Assembly (NCBI RefSeq): GCF_020150455.1
Contig: NZ_CP083740.1
Location: forward strand, 2,852,001-2,916,000
Length of the DNA: 64,000 nt
Source of the DNA: Bremerella sp. TYQ1
GTDB lineage: Bacteria > Planctomycetota > Planctomycetia > Pirellulales > Pirellulaceae
Direction of reading: 5' to 3'
This document shows positions 1-7,860 of the stretch, one piece after another. The notes beneath the pieces are model-generated. The model was not told the origin of the DNA. It saw only the letters and a list, made by a program, of their open reading frames with translations, and searched no databases. Made by a program: the position numbers and the translations under genes. Every line of letters starts with the position of its first letter. Position 1 is the stretch's first letter.

Positions 1-249
1 GACGAGCCGACCTGAGTCTCGAACCCTTCGGTAATTTGCTCGCAATTCGTACTGCCCCTGGGCTAGGTTCTTCCCTGGGGGTGGACGGAGTCGCCCCCGA
101 CGGGAAAAGTCGAAAAAGGGGACTTTGTTTCTTTCCGTGTCCGGCCGGACAAATCGAATCAGGCAACAGAAATTGACTTACCCAGAACACCAAGCTGAGA
201 ATGACGACACATCATTTCCGGTGACAGGTCGGAATCGCTCAAAGTGTGC

Positions 250-1266
250 CTACAGTTCTGTTGGAATACATAGTGGTGTATCCGCTTCTTCACGAACAAA
301 CTCGCGATGTCTCGGCAAACTTGGAAAGCATTCATTGTTGATAAAGTCGAAGATCAACGTGCCTGCGCAGCAATGGCCATTCTTCTTTCCAGCAGCAGCG
401 CTGTCAGTCAGGTGAGATTGGTCGAGTTCTCGCGTAATCGACGCAAGACAATTCTCGGAGATTTGAGTACATGCAATTTGAACTCTCGGGCCGAGTTCGC
501 GAACGGCGTTGACGACTTCAGGCCGCGGAGTAGAGTGTCGTCCCCTACCAATTGAGAAGAAGACAATCTCAGGACTCGCCGCCCTCATAAAATCGTTCAC
601 AAAACTTGCCAAATCACCAGCGCCCGCCCGGCCTCCATGGTGAGGAAAAACTACAATCTTTGCATTTAGTTCCTTTTCCTGCTCCACGATATTTTGAAGG
701 CCGACTATATCAACATCCCCAGGCAGCAAAGCAAACGGATTGCCACCGTATAGCAGTCGTATAACGCCACTGTTGCTATTAGTACCGAGAGTTCTACCCT
801 TGCGGTCAACGCTACCTGGGCCTTTCGATGCAAGATATGTGCTGGGTGCGACAATCTCGATTTCGACGTCCGTTGTATTGAAATCACCGGTTGATTCTGT
901 TGTCAATATTGGCTGAAAGTCGATTCCTGGATTTTGTGACAACTCGAAAACGAGATCATCCCAAGTGCTGCTCGTCTTTGCGGAGTCAGTGTTCGCTCGA
1001 ACGACGCCAACCGAAACTGTGTCGCTCGCTAACAGTCCAATTAATCCGCCAATGTGATCAGTATCAGCGTGGGATAATAGAATTGTGTCAATATGTTTGA
1101 TTTCTTGCTCTCTTAGAAACTCAAGCAGTATTGCTCCCTGCCCTGTGTCAATAACGACGGTCACACCACCGTTTATTAGTACGGCAGAATTTCCGTGCCC
1201 AACGTCAAGAACAACGAAAGCGTCTTTCAACCGTTTGACTCCCGTCACGGCTTCTAAATCTCCCAA
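250..1266 (-). CDS. ComEC-type metallo-beta-lactamase-fold hydrolase, last gene of a four-gene cassette
   Basis: A 338-residue stand-alone MBL-fold hydrolase like the C-terminal domain of ComEC/Rec2, without any membrane channel part. Visible elements are LDVGHGNS (20-27), VIDTGQG (38-44), the metal motif LLSHADTDHIGG (63-74, HxDxDH), LLPGDVD (180-186), PHHGG (208-212) and a Ser/Arg-rich GRGRHSTPRPE (240-250). In this family two metals usually hydrolyse phosphodiester bonds, so nuclease or nucleotide phosphodiesterase activity is the likely chemistry; the substrate is not visible. There is no signal peptide, so it should be cytoplasmic. Its start overlaps the end of the receiver gene upstream by 13 bp, which implies translational coupling. 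I infer that it is the effector of the cassette. The C-terminal 50 residues look poorly conserved. Confidence 0.85.
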   Translation of the reverse strand: MGDLEAVTGVKRLKDAFVVLDVGHGNSAVLINGGVTVVIDTGQGAILLEFLREQEIKHIDTILLSHADTDHIGGLIGLLASDTVSVGVVRANTDSAKTSSTWDDLVFELSQNPGIDFQPILTTESTGDFNTTDVEIEIVAPSTYLASKGPGSVDRKGRTLGTNSNSGVIRLLYGGNPFALLPGDVDIVGLQNIVEQEKELNAKIVVFPHHGGRAGAGDLASFVNDFMRAASPEIVFFSIGRGRHSTPRPEVVNAVRELGPRVQIACTQISENCLASITRELDQSHLTDSAAAGKKNGHCCAGTLIFDFINNECFPSLPRHREFVREEADTPLCIPTEL

Positions 1267-1922
1267 TCTGAAAAATAAAGGTCTTCGTCTGATTCCGCGC
1301 CCAAATTTACTTGCGCGTGAAACCGTTGCTCTCCCTGTTTGACTTTGTTGACAACTTCTGAGGGACAGTCACTAATTTGAAGTCTTATTCGTTTCTTTGT
1401 ATCCCAAGCTGGAACGACAGCATATGCATAGCTGCAGCCGTCCTCGAAATCTTCAATTCGAACTAGCGCTCTCCAAGGCCGCCGAGGCACGATAAACTCT
1501 CCTCGAAACTCACGAACGCATAAGTTGAACGCTTCGAGAATATTCTCTGGCTCTGCCTCATCGTAGGAGATAACACGAGGAATGTACCGCCTGCGCCGTC
1601 GCAATAGACTCGCTTCCCAGTCCGTATACTTTGTGCATAGGACTACAGGTACCTTCGCTAAATAAAGAGAAGAAGCAAGTTCATCCCCATCAAACACGGC
1701 ATAGTTCCCATGTTTTTTAAGATGATAGTCGCAAAACGCCGCATCGACTCGGGGCCGCAGGTTCGCCACGTAACTGTCTAGAACATCCAATGGACCATCT
1801 TCAACAACCGGTGTGCAGTCCATATCTTCAATGGCAAGCTTGTAGGTATTCCGCCCACCGAGATCATCATCAATGACGGCAACTCTCGAGAATATTTTTT
1901 TGGACAAGGCCATGTCCGACAT
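1254..1922 (-). CDS. Receiver-domain (response-regulator-like) protein with novel C-terminal domain
   Basis: 222 residues. The N-terminal half reads as a CheY-like receiver: hydrophobic strand then acidic cluster DDD (18-20), predicted phospho-acceptor D65 in AFCDYHL, and VVLCTKYTD around 93-101 holding the conserved Thr. The usual switch Lys-Pro seems replaced by Arg in YIPRVI, so the phospho-switch may be atypical. The C-terminal 85 residues (from about 140) match no DNA-binding domain I recognise: no helix-turn-helix, with apparent beta strands and many acidic residues. It lies 3 bp after the GHKL gene and overlaps the MBL gene by 13 bp. I infer that it receives phosphate from the kinase-like neighbour and controls the MBL protein rather than transcription. 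The start could also be Met4 at 1913. Confidence 0.75.
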   Translation of the reverse strand: MSDMALSKKIFSRVAVIDDDLGGRNTYKLAIEDMDCTPVVEDGPLDVLDSYVANLRPRVDAAFCDYHLKKHGNYAVFDGDELASSLYLAKVPVVLCTKYTDWEASLLRRRRRYIPRVISYDEAEPENILEAFNLCVREFRGEFIVPRRPWRALVRIEDFEDGCSYAYAVVPAWDTKKRIRLQISDCPSEVVNKVKQGEQRFHAQVNLGAESDEDLYFSDWEI

Positions 1923-1925
1923 TAC

Positions 1926-4007
1926 TCACCTTCCGATAATTGGGATTTCAATGATGATTTCAACTCCACCTAATTCAGACGATTCACTAGCGTTAACTTT
2001 TCCTCCAACATCCACTACAGTATCACGAACTATCGTCAGTCCTAAACCAGTTCCTCCGTCGCGAGTCGATTGACCTGGCAGCCAAATGTCCCGCGGCCTT
2101 ATGTCGACAAGTCCCGGTCCGTTATCAGAAACCGAAAGTACAAGTACATCCTTCACAACTTGTGTATTGATTGCAATTCTTCGGTTCTGGGTACCTGCCT
2201 TTTCAAAAAACGCAAGGCTGTTATTAATGAGGTTTGTGATGATCGACTCGAAAGCAGCATCACTGCCGCGAAAATATGGCTCACCCGAACAAAGGATAAG
2301 TTGAACTTCCACTCCACGCCCATTCAAAAATGGCTGAAACGTGTTTAAGATCTTTTGAATCAGAGTATGAGGGTTTACGCGTCCCAATCTTCGCTTCTCG
2401 TGATCCAAGAGTTCAAGTGTTGCCGCCCCAAGCACTCCCAGACTCTCCGTTGCATTTTCGACATTAGATACTGGTTCTTCAAACTTTTCGTCGAAGACAT
2501 CTCTAAAAAGTCTCATGCCACGTCTTCTAATCGCCCTGATGCTTCCGCGAATAACCTTGATCGGACTCGCACTGCTTTCGTGCGCAAACGTCGCTGCCAT
2601 GATGCCCGCAGTCGCCAACGTACGGTACAGCTGTATTTCCTTTTTTAGTCGGTCGACTTCCTTTTCGCGACTTCGGTCATATGCCTTGGCCGCTTCAGTA
2701 AGTTCTTCACGAACAGGCTCCGGAGTTGTCTGAATAACTTCATCCAGCTTTTTCTTCGATCTTCTAGTCTTGCGTTGGGCTTGGGTACGCTCGCTTGCCC
2801 TTCTTTTTTCGGCAACTTCCATTCGCCGTCGGGCCATCCATTCGAGGGCATCCATTGCAAATCGCCGCAGATCGGTAAAAGCCTCTGTCTCGATGAAACC
2901 GGAACGATCCGTTTTCTGAACGAGCACTGCATTTCGATCGATTACTTCAACTTTTCCAATCGAAGTATGTGTACCAGGTCTTTCCTCTGGATTCCTGTTT
3001 CGCAATAGATTTATATCTAACCAGTCATGACCAGGATTTCCGTAAGGGCTTACTCGTAATCCGTTGCTATATAAGTGAACACCGCCGAATGCTCCCAGCC
3101 ACTCTTTCACTTGGGCAAGAGAGACTGGTCGAGTTTGAAAAGACGTATGACTCAGAAGGAAGACCCAAAACTCGAATCTAGCATCAGGACAGGCATAGTT
3201 CGGCTTTTCTGCATCCTCAATGATATCTTCGTGTTCCGCTTCGAAGAGGGGTTCTCCTTTCGAGTCGAGAACGCTTGCCGTTGCTTTTCCATTCCGAACC
3301 TTAGCTACAAGGTGATAATCGGCTTCGGAGAAGTAACGTTGCCGTACTAGCTTCTCAAGATCGGAGTATGCCGTCGCGATCAATCGCGGCTTAAAAGCTG
3401 TAGGGTCATCCAAAAATGGGTCTGCGAGCAGAATCATTGCTCGTGCGAGGCGTTTTACATCCCATCGTCCAATACGCTGTTTGAGCTGACCAATCTCGAT
3501 CTCAGTGCCATGCGGAACTGAAGCCTCACGATTTTGTGAACGGACAGAAAGGGGGACGTTTTCAATTAGATCTGCATTCTGAAAGCTATTCCAGTCGATC
3601 TCCAAAAGGTGTTCCCGGCTTCGATCTGATCGTGGTCTAGTTAGTAGCCGAGCAGTTTTCCCCATACGGAGAGCAGCGAGTCGTCCAAGGCCTTTGTTAC
3701 CGGCCGGGATTCTTTTCAATCGAGTCAATCGCCGTGTGTTCTTTGACGACTTTCCGAGAACCAGCCATCCATCAACGATATCGTCACGAGCCATTCCGTC
3801 ACCATCGTCCCGGATTCGTACGGTACCGCCAGGAGTATCCGTATCGATTAACTCCACAACGCATTCGCTTGCATTCGCATCAAATGAGTTCTTGACGAGT
3901 TCCAAAAGCCCCTGATCAGGTGACGGATTTAATTCCTCTCCCAAGCGTTGCAGAATATCGGTTGCAAACCGGAATGTTGCGGTCGAATTGGTGCTTTGCT
4001 CACTCAC
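1926..4007 (-). CDS. Double-GHKL ATPase: N-terminal HSP90/MORC-like ATPase fused to a histidine-kinase module
   Basis: 693 residues with two ATP sites of the Bergerat fold. The first is N-terminal: ELVKNSFDANA (36-46, N box), DDGDGM (67-72) and GNKGLGRLA (103-111), followed by a long MutL/HSP90-like middle region. A charged coiled-coil linker follows (about 390-460). Next come a HisKA-like helix with the H box FAHE (His about 476) and a second ATPase, with NLINNSLAFFEKA (592 on), VSDNGPGL (626-633) and GGTGLGL (651-657), as in sensor kinases. No membrane segments or PAS domain are seen, so it is a cytoplasmic sensor. Its start overlaps the methylase stop in ATGA; the receiver gene starts 3 bp after its stop. 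Inference: the N-terminal ATPase senses a target such as DNA and drives autophosphorylation of the C-terminal part. Confidence 0.85.
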   Translation of the reverse strand: MSEQSTNSTATFRFATDILQRLGEELNPSPDQGLLELVKNSFDANASECVVELIDTDTPGGTVRIRDDGDGMARDDIVDGWLVLGKSSKNTRRLTRLKRIPAGNKGLGRLAALRMGKTARLLTRPRSDRSREHLLEIDWNSFQNADLIENVPLSVRSQNREASVPHGTEIEIGQLKQRIGRWDVKRLARAMILLADPFLDDPTAFKPRLIATAYSDLEKLVRQRYFSEADYHLVAKVRNGKATASVLDSKGEPLFEAEHEDIIEDAEKPNYACPDARFEFWVFLLSHTSFQTRPVSLAQVKEWLGAFGGVHLYSNGLRVSPYGNPGHDWLDINLLRNRNPEERPGTHTSIGKVEVIDRNAVLVQKTDRSGFIETEAFTDLRRFAMDALEWMARRRMEVAEKRRASERTQAQRKTRRSKKKLDEVIQTTPEPVREELTEAAKAYDRSREKEVDRLKKEIQLYRTLATAGIMAATFAHESSASPIKVIRGSIRAIRRRGMRLFRDVFDEKFEEPVSNVENATESLGVLGAATLELLDHEKRRLGRVNPHTLIQKILNTFQPFLNGRGVEVQLILCSGEPYFRGSDAAFESIITNLINNSLAFFEKAGTQNRRIAINTQVVKDVLVLSVSDNGPGLVDIRPRDIWLPGQSTRDGGTGLGLTIVRDTVVDVGGKVNASESSELGGVEIIIEIPIIGR

Positions 4008-5362
4008 GGAAGGTTAGCCCAGGGGATAGAATTGATAGTAGAAATGGTGAGATGACGACAACGCATCACTTTATTGACGTAGTCTGTTGTAGCAGTATTT
4101 TTAAATAGTTTAAGTAAGCGTCTGCAACTACTTAGCTTTCCATCTCTTGGCTTAAGAACAATAAGGTGATTTTCTACAGCGTATTCTTCCTGTCCAGATA
4201 CGATGGTTCCCACTACTCGATAAGTGTCCTCTGGACGAGAGGTTCTTCGAACTACGACAAAAGGGCCTGCGATTCGGCGTCCACGAAAACGCCGTTTGGG
4301 GAGATCACAGCTCTCAACCGATGACCAACGAGGTAGATTTCTTGCTTGGAGATACGGCAACCACTGGCCCAACCTAGGCTCTCGATATTCAACAACAGGT
4401 CCAACCGAGGCGACAAAGAAATCGCTTACCGAGAGTTCTTTTGGGGACTGCTGATCGATGTATGCCTGGTTACGACAAGAATCCTGCCACGACGCTTTAG
4501 TAATACGTTTTTCGTGGGCGATTCGAGGTTGAATAGTTACGATCGTATTCTTCGCCCTCTTCACAGCGACGAGCATAAATACATGTACGTCAGTGGTTGG
4601 ATCGAATTTTTTAAGCGGAATAACACGGCTGATATTTGCCAATCGCTCTATCTCTATTCGCCACTTTCTGTATCGAGAACCACTGCGGAGTACATCGGGA
4701 AGAATCGCAACCATTTTTGCATCGGAGCGCATTTGAGCCAAAACATGATGAGTGAAAAGCGCACTCGCATTTATCTTGCCGTTACCCCACCCTATGTGTT
4801 CCGGTGACTTCACTGAAGTAAACGGGGGATTCATAATCACTCCCCCAAGCGAACCTAGGTGTACAGATTGTGCGAGCCCGTCGGCCTGTTGAATGTTTGA
4901 GAAAAGTTCAGATGGAGATGGGCAAACCTGAACTCCATCTTGCCTCTGAGCAATTGCCCTAAGCAACAGCCTTATCTGGCACGCTCGGACAAACGACGGC
5001 TGCAGATCCCACCCCATCAGGGATGAGTTCCAAGTTTCGATTTTCTGTTTTATGCTTCCGCCCCTGGGCAGGTATTGCGTGCAAGCTAGTAGTAGATCGC
5101 CAGCACCGCAGGCAGGATCACAGATCCTTTCTCCTCGCTTGATCACAGGCTCCAAAAACTTGGCAGCAGTTTTTGCAAGCGATTCGTCAGTAAAGAAAGC
5201 GCCGTGTTTTCTGCGTAATGAAGTAGGGACAAGTCGATAGAGTTCACTTTTTGCCAGCCCATTGGTGGCAATTTCTATTTCCTTACGGAAGCTCTGTGGA
5301 TTGGCATGTGAGGAGGCCAACAGTGATTCGAGCTGATGAACAAATGTATCGTAACTCTTCAT
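4004..5362 (-). CDS. N6-adenine DNA methyltransferase (HsdM/Eco57I-like), first gene of cassette
   Basis: 452 residues. Motif X-like GAFFTDE (54-60), the SAM-binding motif I DPACGAG (82-88), GWDLQPS (117-123) and the catalytic motif IV NPPF (178-181) define a gamma-class N6-adenine methylase. The C-terminal part from about 335, with YLQARNLPRW and a basic stretch, resembles a TaqI/type I specificity (target-recognition) segment, so it may recognise its site without a separate HsdS. No restriction endonuclease or helicase lies next to it, so this is not a standard restriction-modification unit. It is the promoter-proximal gene; the stop overlaps the GHKL start by 4 bp. Alternatives are a solitary modification enzyme or a self-marking component of a defence system. 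Confidence 0.88.
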   Translation of the reverse strand: MKSYDTFVHQLESLLASSHANPQSFRKEIEIATNGLAKSELYRLVPTSLRRKHGAFFTDESLAKTAAKFLEPVIKRGERICDPACGAGDLLLACTQYLPRGGSIKQKIETWNSSLMGWDLQPSFVRACQIRLLLRAIAQRQDGVQVCPSPSELFSNIQQADGLAQSVHLGSLGGVIMNPPFTSVKSPEHIGWGNGKINASALFTHHVLAQMRSDAKMVAILPDVLRSGSRYRKWRIEIERLANISRVIPLKKFDPTTDVHVFMLVAVKRAKNTIVTIQPRIAHEKRITKASWQDSCRNQAYIDQQSPKELSVSDFFVASVGPVVEYREPRLGQWLPYLQARNLPRWSSVESCDLPKRRFRGRRIAGPFVVVRRTSRPEDTYRVVGTIVSGQEEYAVENHLIVLKPRDGKLSSCRRLLKLFKNTATTDYVNKVMRCRHLTISTINSIPWANLP

Positions 5363-5483
5363 AGCTCAACATGTCCCTAATACTTTTTTGTCCAACCCAC
5401 GCATTCTACATAATCGGCACAATCGAATTGGATCTTGGGTTTAAGCATCACAGCACGATAATCTAGCTACATTCTGGTCAATT

Positions 5484-5562
<79 letters not shown>

Positions 5563-5578
5563 CTTTTTAAAGCGAAAT

Positions 5579-5614
5579 GGCAGTTATCAGATCTTCTGGT
5601 GACTGCCTTTTTTT
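5579..5614 (+). terminator. Intrinsic terminator after tRNA-Asp-like segment
   Basis: A 12-bp stem, GGCAGTTATCAG against CTGGTGACTGCC with two G-U pairs, is followed by seven T. It lies 16 nt after the tRNA-like 3' end, as expected for the original host flank of a tRNA gene. Confidence 0.8.
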
Positions 5615-6987: not shown

Positions 6988-7860
6988 ATGAATTACCCTC
7001 GTTTCGATCAAGAGCCAGAGAAGCCGAGCAACGCATTTGCTGCAGCTGGGTTTGCTTTATCGCTGTTTTCGCTGGTGGTTTGCGGTATCTTCTCGCCGAT
7101 CGCATTGATCCTATGCCTGGTCGGTTTGCTGTACCAACCCAAGAAGCTGGCAATCGTCGGCACGGTGATTAGCGGGATCTCTACCATCCTAGTGATCGCC
7201 ATGGTCTGGTCCATCTACAGCAAATTCTCCGAAGCCTTCCACGGCTTTAACGAAGAGTACGAGACCCGTCTGGTGTTCGAGGACGCGAACCGCAAGATCG
7301 TGAAGCACTACTACGAAAACGGGCAAGTCCCTGACGATGTCGAGGGAGACAAACTAATCGAGGAAGATCCCACGATCGACCCACCTCAACGATACGAGAT
7401 GCTAGGCAGGGAGGTGTATCGCCTGACGAGCGCCGGCGAAGACGGGGTTTTCGATACCGACGACGATGTCTCGAAGGACTACGACGTCGACGATACGCTT
7501 ATCTATTACATCGATGAGATCCAAGAAGAATCGTTCGATGACTATTGGGAATACGAGGAAGGGACCGAGGACGTACCTGAGGAGCAACCTTCCGCAGATG
7601 TGACTGAAACTCGGCCAGCCCAACCGTTCGTGCCGCCGAAGAAAGAAGAGCCCCAGATCACAACGTTGCAGAACATGACGCAGCGTACGTGGACGAGCCA
7701 TGACGGATCGTTCACATCGGAAGCGACGTTAGTTTCGTACGACAAAACAAACGACCGCGTCGAGCTCCGCCGGCCAGACGATTCCAAGATGATCGTGCCG
7801 ATGTCGCAGCTTTCTCTTGAGGACCAAGGCTACGTCCGCGGGAAACTCTCTTCCCAATAA
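6988..7860 (+). CDS. DUF4190-like membrane protein with C-terminal SHD1 (SLA1 homology) domain
   Basis: 290 residues. After a short cytoplasmic start, residues about 12-75 form two membrane helices joined by a short turn, in the DUF4190 style (FAAAGFALSLFSLVVCGIFS, then VGTVISGISTILVIAMVW). The middle (about 90-185) is very acidic, with an Asp-rich DTDDDVSKDYDVDDT. After a Pro-rich linker, the last 58 residues (RTWTSHDGSFTSEATLVSYD to the end) match the SHD1 domain, a small beta fold frequent in planctomycete proteins. No catalytic residue is visible. It is a single gene with no close co-oriented neighbour. The function is unknown; a membrane-anchored scaffold is a guess. Confidence 0.8.
   Translation: MNYPRFDQEPEKPSNAFAAAGFALSLFSLVVCGIFSPIALILCLVGLLYQPKKLAIVGTVISGISTILVIAMVWSIYSKFSEAFHGFNEEYETRLVFEDANRKIVKHYYENGQVPDDVEGDKLIEEDPTIDPPQRYEMLGREVYRLTSAGEDGVFDTDDDVSKDYDVDDTLIYYIDEIQEESFDDYWEYEEGTEDVPEEQPSADVTETRPAQPFVPPKKEEPQITTLQNMTQRTWTSHDGSFTSEATLVSYDKTNDRVELRRPDDSKMIVPMSQLSLEDQGYVRGKLSSQ

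Follow-up and report, generated by a model that had tools for sequence, protein, structure and literature searches.

What might a compact block joining an adenine methylase, a histidine kinase with two ATPase domains, a receiver and a ComEC-like hydrolase do for the bacterium or the phage that carries it? The question is raised by four minus-strand genes at positions 250-5362 of a 64,000-nucleotide stretch of Bremerella sp. TYQ1 DNA (the window; G000:C1:2852001-2916000, from a host genome that is a 6.66-Mb single contig). We propose that the cassette probably protects against foreign DNA in a way not described before; the specific reading that we prefer, a phage-carried, two-component-controlled, restriction-like system, has in our estimate a probability of about 0.45. 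The four-gene unit, its conservation, its intact catalytic residues and its mobility are directly supported, as are, through structure models, its receiver and ComEC-like folds.

The minus-strand block of methylase, double-GHKL kinase, receiver and metallo-beta-lactamase (MBL) genes claimed in an initial annotation is confirmed by the open reading frame (ORF) listing together with Pfam. Its members, called MT, HK, RR and MBL here, are as follows, with lengths in amino acids (aa):

4004..5362, minus strand: MT, gamma-class N6-adenine DNA methyltransferase, 452 aa (Pfam, PDB sequence search, motifs)
1926..4007, minus strand: HK, histidine kinase, 693 aa (Pfam, PDB and NCBIfam sequence searches)
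1254..1922, minus strand: RR, receiver protein, 222 aa (structure model, fold search)
250..1266, minus strand: MBL, ComEC-like metallo-beta-lactamase-fold hydrolase, 338 aa (Pfam, PDB search, model)

Their motifs and candidate phospho-acceptors are given below with residue counts across copies, for which rows outside set length limits and loci L060 and L066-L071 were removed beforehand and the HK of locus L017 was corrected:

5090..5119, minus strand: MT motif I, DPACGAGDLL, residues 82-91 (D82 and G86 each 43/43)
4820..4831, minus strand: MT motif IV, NPPF, residues 178-181 (N178, P179 and P180 43/43; residue 181 is F in 35 and Y in 8)
3888..3902, minus strand: N-box of the N-terminal GHKL domain of HK, E36...N40 (E36 58/58, N40 58/58)
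2580..2582, minus strand: candidate phospho-acceptor H476 of HK, in FAHES (58/58)
1728..1730, minus strand: candidate phospho-acceptor D65 of RR (57/57; D19 57/57, D18 56/57)
1054..1071, minus strand: metal motif HADTDH of MBL, residues 66-71, the ComEC-type HxDxDH variant (H66, D68, D70 and H71 57/57)

The methylase matches N6_Mtase in Pfam (2.7e-11), resembles BseCI and HsdM in the PDB sequence search and has both an N6 domain and the catalytic motifs of a candidate site-specific enzyme. The kinase runs from an N-terminal MORC/MutL-type GHKL ATPase (HATPase_c_3, 7.3e-20) through a transducer-like middle and DHp helices to a C-terminal HATPase_c (5.3e-19), and it retrieves MORC2 in the PDB sequence search (E 1.1e-4). 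Pfam gives no DHp match, and these helices are assigned from the alignment, where H476 is invariant; both GHKL sites are intact across 57-58 copies. Target-recognition regions and sensor inputs are usually the variable parts of such proteins. Here the C-terminal region of MT (about residues 313-448), which in our own reading resembles a target-recognition domain (TRD), has a mean pairwise identity of 0.45 among 43 copies, above the 0.38 of the catalytic part, and the best-conserved portion of HK is its input half (0.54 for the N-terminal GHKL domain and 0.52 for the transducer, as against 0.44 for DHp and 0.48 for the kinase ATPase). Such constancy in both regions suggests that the input is generic and the target shared, or that protein contacts hold the two regions fixed.

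RR has no Pfam match, and its structure model consists of a receiver and a small C-terminal beta-rich domain. The receiver portion fills the fold-search lists, whose matches say little on the C-terminal domain; from the strand order in the model we read that domain as OB-like. A search of a viral fold library returned receivers and kinases as its top matches. MBL, which starts at TTG or at a GTG six codons downstream, matches Lactamase_B in Pfam (1.1e-13). Its closest sequence in the PDB is ComEC (1e-19; six ComEC sequences fall between 1e-19 and 9e-13), and the fold closest to its model (predicted local distance difference test score 93.6) is the beta-lactamase-like domain of ComEC (9ic4, 5e-16), followed by the phosphorylcholine esterase CbpE; an MBL protein with bound cAMP is also among the fold matches. 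D184, H209 and H210 are each conserved in 57/57 copies, and a C-terminal cluster of C266, C273 and C300 (each 54/57), C333 (56/57) and H320 (53/57) suggests a metal knuckle. With its HxDxDH metal motif and ComEC MBL fold the protein is of the ComEC type, and we regard it as a candidate nuclease. As to a cognate restriction endonuclease, Pfam detects no restriction-nuclease domain of a known type in any of the four genes; nor does it detect a protease domain in the proteins. PADLOC returned generic methylase and MBL similarities (for MT, among the best 25 of 28 matches) and one weak REase_II match for HK, and no NCBIfam match exceeded its family cut-off among those listed (the best 25 of 77 for HK and the best 25 of 28 for MBL).

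The conservation of gene order in unrelated genomes, which the initial annotation had named as a check, is borne out: of the 62 loci examined (L004-L065), 41 have MT, HK, RR and MBL consecutively in this order and on the same strand. With three viral contigs uncounted, these 41 carry 12 phylum-level labels, of which 11 are NCBI phyla and the twelfth is Candidatus Aminicenantes. The loci come from a scan with an HK alignment that yielded at least 59 loci on contigs of GTDB species and nine from IMG/VR, numbers that are not a prevalence; viral matches L066-L071, at most 32% identical, were set aside and L063-L065 kept. In a protein search with HK, 2327 of the 7997 proteins scored reached E <= 1e-3, the best 120 all being at least 54% identical. 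A script recovered 37 of the 41 (including L033, with an MBL frame of only 131 aa), to which were added L007 and L008, where RR is present though an overlap filter removed it, and L046 and L057, which have split frames. Many of these loci are bins; the records of Chryseolinea, Demequina, Amnibacterium, Albitalea, Massilia and Schaalia carry no metagenome-assembled-genome label. Mantel tests between the distance matrices of the four proteins give r of 0.49-0.83 with L017 omitted, and every one of these values exceeds those of all 999 permutations. When L017 is kept, whose row is a second, distant HK copy, r for MT and HK is 0.13 and not significant.

A three-gene form, HK-RR-MBL without MT, accounts for 15/62 loci. 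Absence of MT can be judged in 12 of the 15, namely 11 cyanobacteria and the acidobacterium L043; it cannot in L036, L039 and L050, where the contig starts inside HK or no more than 0.45 kb from it. MT is separable because this cyanobacterial form exists. No full-length MT was found elsewhere in the nine cyanobacterial three-gene genomes searched, eight of which have partial methylase-domain matches and the ninth none; such versions may respond to an input other than methylation, or another methylase may substitute. As for the other loci, L051 has a convergent MT behind MBL, L053 has RR and MBL on the opposite strand, and four are incomplete or different: L026 and L054 lie at contig ends (L026 without an upstream MT), L059 is degraded, and L060 is a 28% relative in a C5-methylase operon.

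In the window the cassette is prophage cargo. It had been placed beside a putative island border; the border is real, and its identity is the right attachment site (attR) of a prophage of about 41 kb in tRNA-Asp. The features concerned, none with a strand, are:

5514..5567: attR, whose 54 bp exactly repeat the 3' portion of tRNA-Asp plus the bases that follow, and recur at the left attachment site (attL)
G000:C1:2816194-2816247, outside the window: attL, overlapping an intact tRNA-Asp (L003:4169-4243) in its 3' portion
1..5567: right end of the prophage, which spans G000:C1:2816194-2857567 (about 41.4 kb) and lies mostly left of the window

The prophage is seemingly complete and encodes an integrase, a replication initiator, terminase, portal, head protease/capsid, tape measure and a DNA methyltransferase (PHROGs, with 7 of 10 submitted proteins matched). 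The site is empty in congeners G515, G518 and G520, with about 0.9 kb between the left tRNA flank and the right flank gene, and it holds an insert of about 39.5 kb in G205 and of about 8 kb in G516; the flanks lie on different contigs in G517, G519 and G521, the last two having an additional attachment-site copy. The tRNA-Asp of these congeners is a busy integration hotspot. The G205 element is a diverged relative of the window's prophage (terminase 42%, phage methyltransferase 59%), and its slot between the phage methyltransferase and attR measures about 1.1 kb, as against 7.5 kb with the cassette. Per 1-kb window, the guanine-cytosine content is 46-50% over the cassette and 52-58% right of attR. 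Adjoining the cassette in the same cargo slot is a gene (L002:18695-19777; G000:C1:2850695-2851777) for a 360-aa protein with hydrophobic N-terminal segments and no Pfam match.

Other mobile elements carry the cassette too. All four genes are present on three viral contigs from IMG/VR (L063, L064 and L065): phage tail, endolysin and phage-type DNA methyltransferase genes lie upstream of them in L063 and L065, with a spanin as well in L063, and an integrase adjoins them in L064 (9 of 10 submitted neighbour proteins matched). HK similarity occurs in 8 of 72,556 plasmid records and spans at least 80% of the HK length in 4. Plasmids of Burkholderia aenigmatica and Hymenobacter volaticus have all four genes in the same order. 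A Pseudanabaena plasmid (NZ_AP017563.1, L136) has the three-gene form: it keeps HK and RR, while an IS982 transposase gene separates the two parts in which MBL is annotated. A Deinococcus plasmid has a 23% HK relative.

How might the parts work together? MT would methylate adenines in a fixed target and so mark resident DNA as self. The N-terminal MORC/MutL-type ATPase of HK and its transducer would form an input module engaging foreign or unmarked DNA; ATP binding there would switch on the C-terminal kinase half, leading to phosphorylation of H476 and transfer of the phosphate to D65 of RR. Phosphorylated RR would bind and activate MBL through its small C-terminal domain, rather than act by promoter binding, and MBL, as a metal-dependent phosphodiesterase, would degrade the invading DNA, or all DNA if unchecked. 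In this genome the cassette would shield both prophage and host from other phages. The initial annotation had sketched a similar route, and its sensor, receiver and MBL steps fit the intact residues of those proteins; the methylase self mark with which it began is not obligatory. A bolder version, tentative and in our view doubtful, is a restriction system gated by phosphorelay, in which every bearer's methylase has one and the same target, as a near-universal self mark, while a MORC-fused kinase reads the state of DNA and acts through the receiver to switch on a ComEC-like nuclease. A common target is proposed because the recognition-like region of MT is the best conserved, across 43 copies from many phyla. 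If true, the shared mark would work like a club badge, compatible from bearer to bearer, and not like an arms-race barcode, and would open new hosts, phages and plasmids to the cassette.

Several points weigh against the restriction-like reading. We infer its wiring, its DNA signal, its nuclease substrate and its biological role. A methylation mark cannot be obligatory in every version, given the judgeable cyanobacterial loci without an adjacent MT, and the TRD-like region lacks the divergence expected of an arms-race restriction-modification (R-M) system. The modelled fold match to CbpE suggests that the substrate of MBL need not be DNA. No full-length HK relative occurs in 50,697 GenBank phage records. 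Enrichment near defence genes, another check named in the initial annotation, did not emerge: in what is a weak test, cassette neighbours had no clear excess of PADLOC matches over control stretches. The PADLOC comparison, at E <= 1e-15, covered samples of 128 of the 209 neighbour ORFs of 20 paired loci (all 59 loci together have 501) and 121 of the 196 ORFs of 18 control stretches, which belong to 18 of the same 20 genomes; a nineteenth stretch (1.6 kb) yielded no ORF, and ORFs of at least 1500 aa were excluded before sampling. ORF picking was crude, and several controls are contig starts. The matched families number 87 in neighbours and 52 in controls, with many models matching one protein. 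Among the top 25 families, neighbours include a type I restriction enzyme (L008), a type I specificity subunit, MzaB, MzaC, mad5 and two RecD-like matches, and controls include GajB, HEC-01A, a type II enzyme, a type IIG enzyme, AriA and two mad3 matches. No common Pfam partner appeared among the best 25 families for the same ORF sets.

Might the cassette instead be a regulatory or housekeeping device, in which the two-component pair senses the state of DNA or a nucleotide level and adjusts methylation or, with MBL as a phosphodiesterase, a metabolite? MBL-fold enzymes do act on many small substrates, as CbpE and the cAMP-bound protein illustrate, and in a quick HK tree (58 rows) the 13 cyanobacterial copies form one clade (SH-like approximate likelihood-ratio support 99) with mostly short branches, like inherited chromosomal genes. 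Rhodothermota form another clade in this tree, which has 21 phylum-label changes as against a minimum of 11. What makes such signalling unlikely is carriage by phage and plasmids, together with the sporadic occurrence of RR. A full-length RR relative is present in at least 2/294 Planctomycetota genomes (the window's and G265, with three more matching in the receiver part only) and at least 6/194 cyanobacterial genomes (at least three already among the loci), both lower bounds with at most 10 candidates scored per Planctomycetota genome and 15 per cyanobacterial genome. With all candidates scored, RR is found in 1/20 relatives (the window's genome only) and in none of eight congeners (one only 68% complete), that is, in 1/9 genomes of the window's genus. 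Mobility fits selfish stabilisation as well, with MT as antidote, MBL as killer and HK/RR as gate: cells losing the prophage or plasmid would die or rivals would be excluded, and defence would be a by-product. The cassette sits at a prophage attachment end, by integrase or late genes in viral contigs and on plasmids, and R-M systems are known for such behaviour, for which PMC8011034 argues too in its Discussion. That cyanobacterial versions persist without an adjacent MT, however, and that a two-protein phosphorelay is odd in a simple addiction module, make this account quite unlikely.

Phage carriage would also suit counter-defence, whereby MBL removes a signalling nucleotide in the manner of the anti-Pycsar enzyme Apyc1 and the prophage escapes host immunity. 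Pfam gives a weak Anti-Pycsar_Apyc1 match (E 0.12), and Apyc1 appears in the PDB search at 6.6e-5, but ComEC is far closer to MBL (1e-19 to 9e-13), and we know of no Apyc1-like enzyme accompanied by a methylase and a kinase; we consider this explanation very improbable. Hardly credible, finally, is control of DNA uptake by a competence-like system whose MBL processes incoming DNA: MBL does resemble the ComEC nuclease domain, but Pfam finds no membrane-channel domain in it, and clustering of ORFs across loci reveals no fifth conserved gene shared beyond a few loci.

If the cassette is a restriction-like system under two-component control, how new is it? The claim that it matches no known arrangement survives for the combination of N6-methylase and MBL, a four-gene set for which we found no name in the searched libraries or in open PMC papers (subscription papers and preprints lay outside the search); it does not for a double-GHKL kinase and receiver beside R-M genes, which is known from PMC8011034. 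That paper (Bellieny-Rabelo et al. 2021) ties HEF_HK kinases, 174/222 of which are HATPase_c_3 + HEF_HK + HATPase_c, to Response_reg_2 receivers and to genes of R-M systems, among which C5 methylases and Vsr/HNH are prominent, and leaves their function unknown. The cassette likewise has a HATPase_c_3, DHp-like and HATPase_c kinase, an adjacent receiver without a known output domain and an upstream methylase, and the middle region of HK aligns with one HEF_HK kinase over 161 columns (29% identity, hhalign probability 98). HK does not match PF19191 at E up to 1 in the window, and the one PF19191 match in 20 genomes with the cassette or HK lies outside the cassette (G318:C1:837377); PF19192 matches no cassette receiver, and when the window's genome is added to those 20, one of the 21 has a match to it, next to the G318 HEF_HK gene. 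Unlike HEF_HK systems, upstream of which C5 methylases are predominant but not universal, the cassette has an N6 methylase, a ComEC-like MBL instead of Vsr/HNH and a fixed four-gene order, and the terms 'lactamase' and 'MBL' are absent from the main text of PMC8011034. With a homologous middle region and the same logic, the cassette is, as far as the alignment goes, a sister of the HEF_HK systems. C5-methylase operons with a double-GHKL kinase and a long receiver-like protein (429-455 aa) are found at L017:78-4493 and L060:4122-9681. The L060 operon also has DUF6998-like and Vsr genes, and the L017 kinase (L017:2376-4493) lies close beside an N6/MBL cassette. Neither the kinases nor the receivers of these operons give a match to PF19191 or PF19192 at E 0.001, and the operons may be a further unnamed branch.

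Other known systems share single elements with the cassette. An N-terminal MORC-like GHKL domain in a methylase operon is common to it, to the paraMORC/MORC proteins of R-M operons (Iyer et al. 2008, PMC2292703) and to BbrUII/HgiDII-type enzymes (NF050001), but in the cassette it is fused to a complete histidine kinase (HK matches NF050001 at E 1.4e-17 and scores 63.5, where the cut-off is 550). Detocs, which PMC11728103 describes as a kinase (DtcA), a phosphate buffer (DtcB) and a response regulator (DtcC), has the same two-component logic in phage defence, whereas the cassette has no buffer gene, a single receiver, a separate MBL effector candidate and a methylase. ComEC-like MBL nucleases stand beside the immune sensors of Hachiman, AVAST, Lamassu and DRT systems, and according to passages of PMC12799240 are activated there through a fused trypsin-like protease; activation in the cassette would be by phosphorelay, and its MBL tail has the conserved Cys/His cluster. 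The ComEC domain itself is, according to PMC8579336, a Mn-dependent nuclease requiring the motif II aspartates. MAD2 of MADS and type I/II N6 methylases share the gamma-class N6 domain with MT, but MT scores 40.7 bits against MAD2 (NF047738; cut-off 720), and no other MADS protein matches HK, RR or MBL among the matches listed.

Some features of the prophage junctions stand apart from the cassette. SHD1-domain proteins of 290 and 340 aa are encoded at window positions 6988-7860, outside attR, and at L003:4867-5889, just inside attL, the latter looking like a host-type gene within the element. Positions 5579-5607, after attR and the tRNA tail, form a terminator-like hairpin (13-bp stem and T run); terminator-like sites in the hairpin region overall are no more numerous than in shuffled sequence.

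HEF_HK-type kinases with receivers beside methylases entered Pfam with the 2021 paper. Here such a pair gains a fixed methylase as well as a single fixed effector candidate open to testing, within a compact operon of four genes found across many phyla, phages and plasmids. On the bolder version, the cassette would be, to our knowledge, the first restriction-type immunity driven by His-Asp phosphotransfer. Can His-Asp signalling control restriction, and can a MORC-like ATPase read DNA on its behalf? Both questions are opened by a cassette whose carriers suggest that phages trade such a system as cargo.

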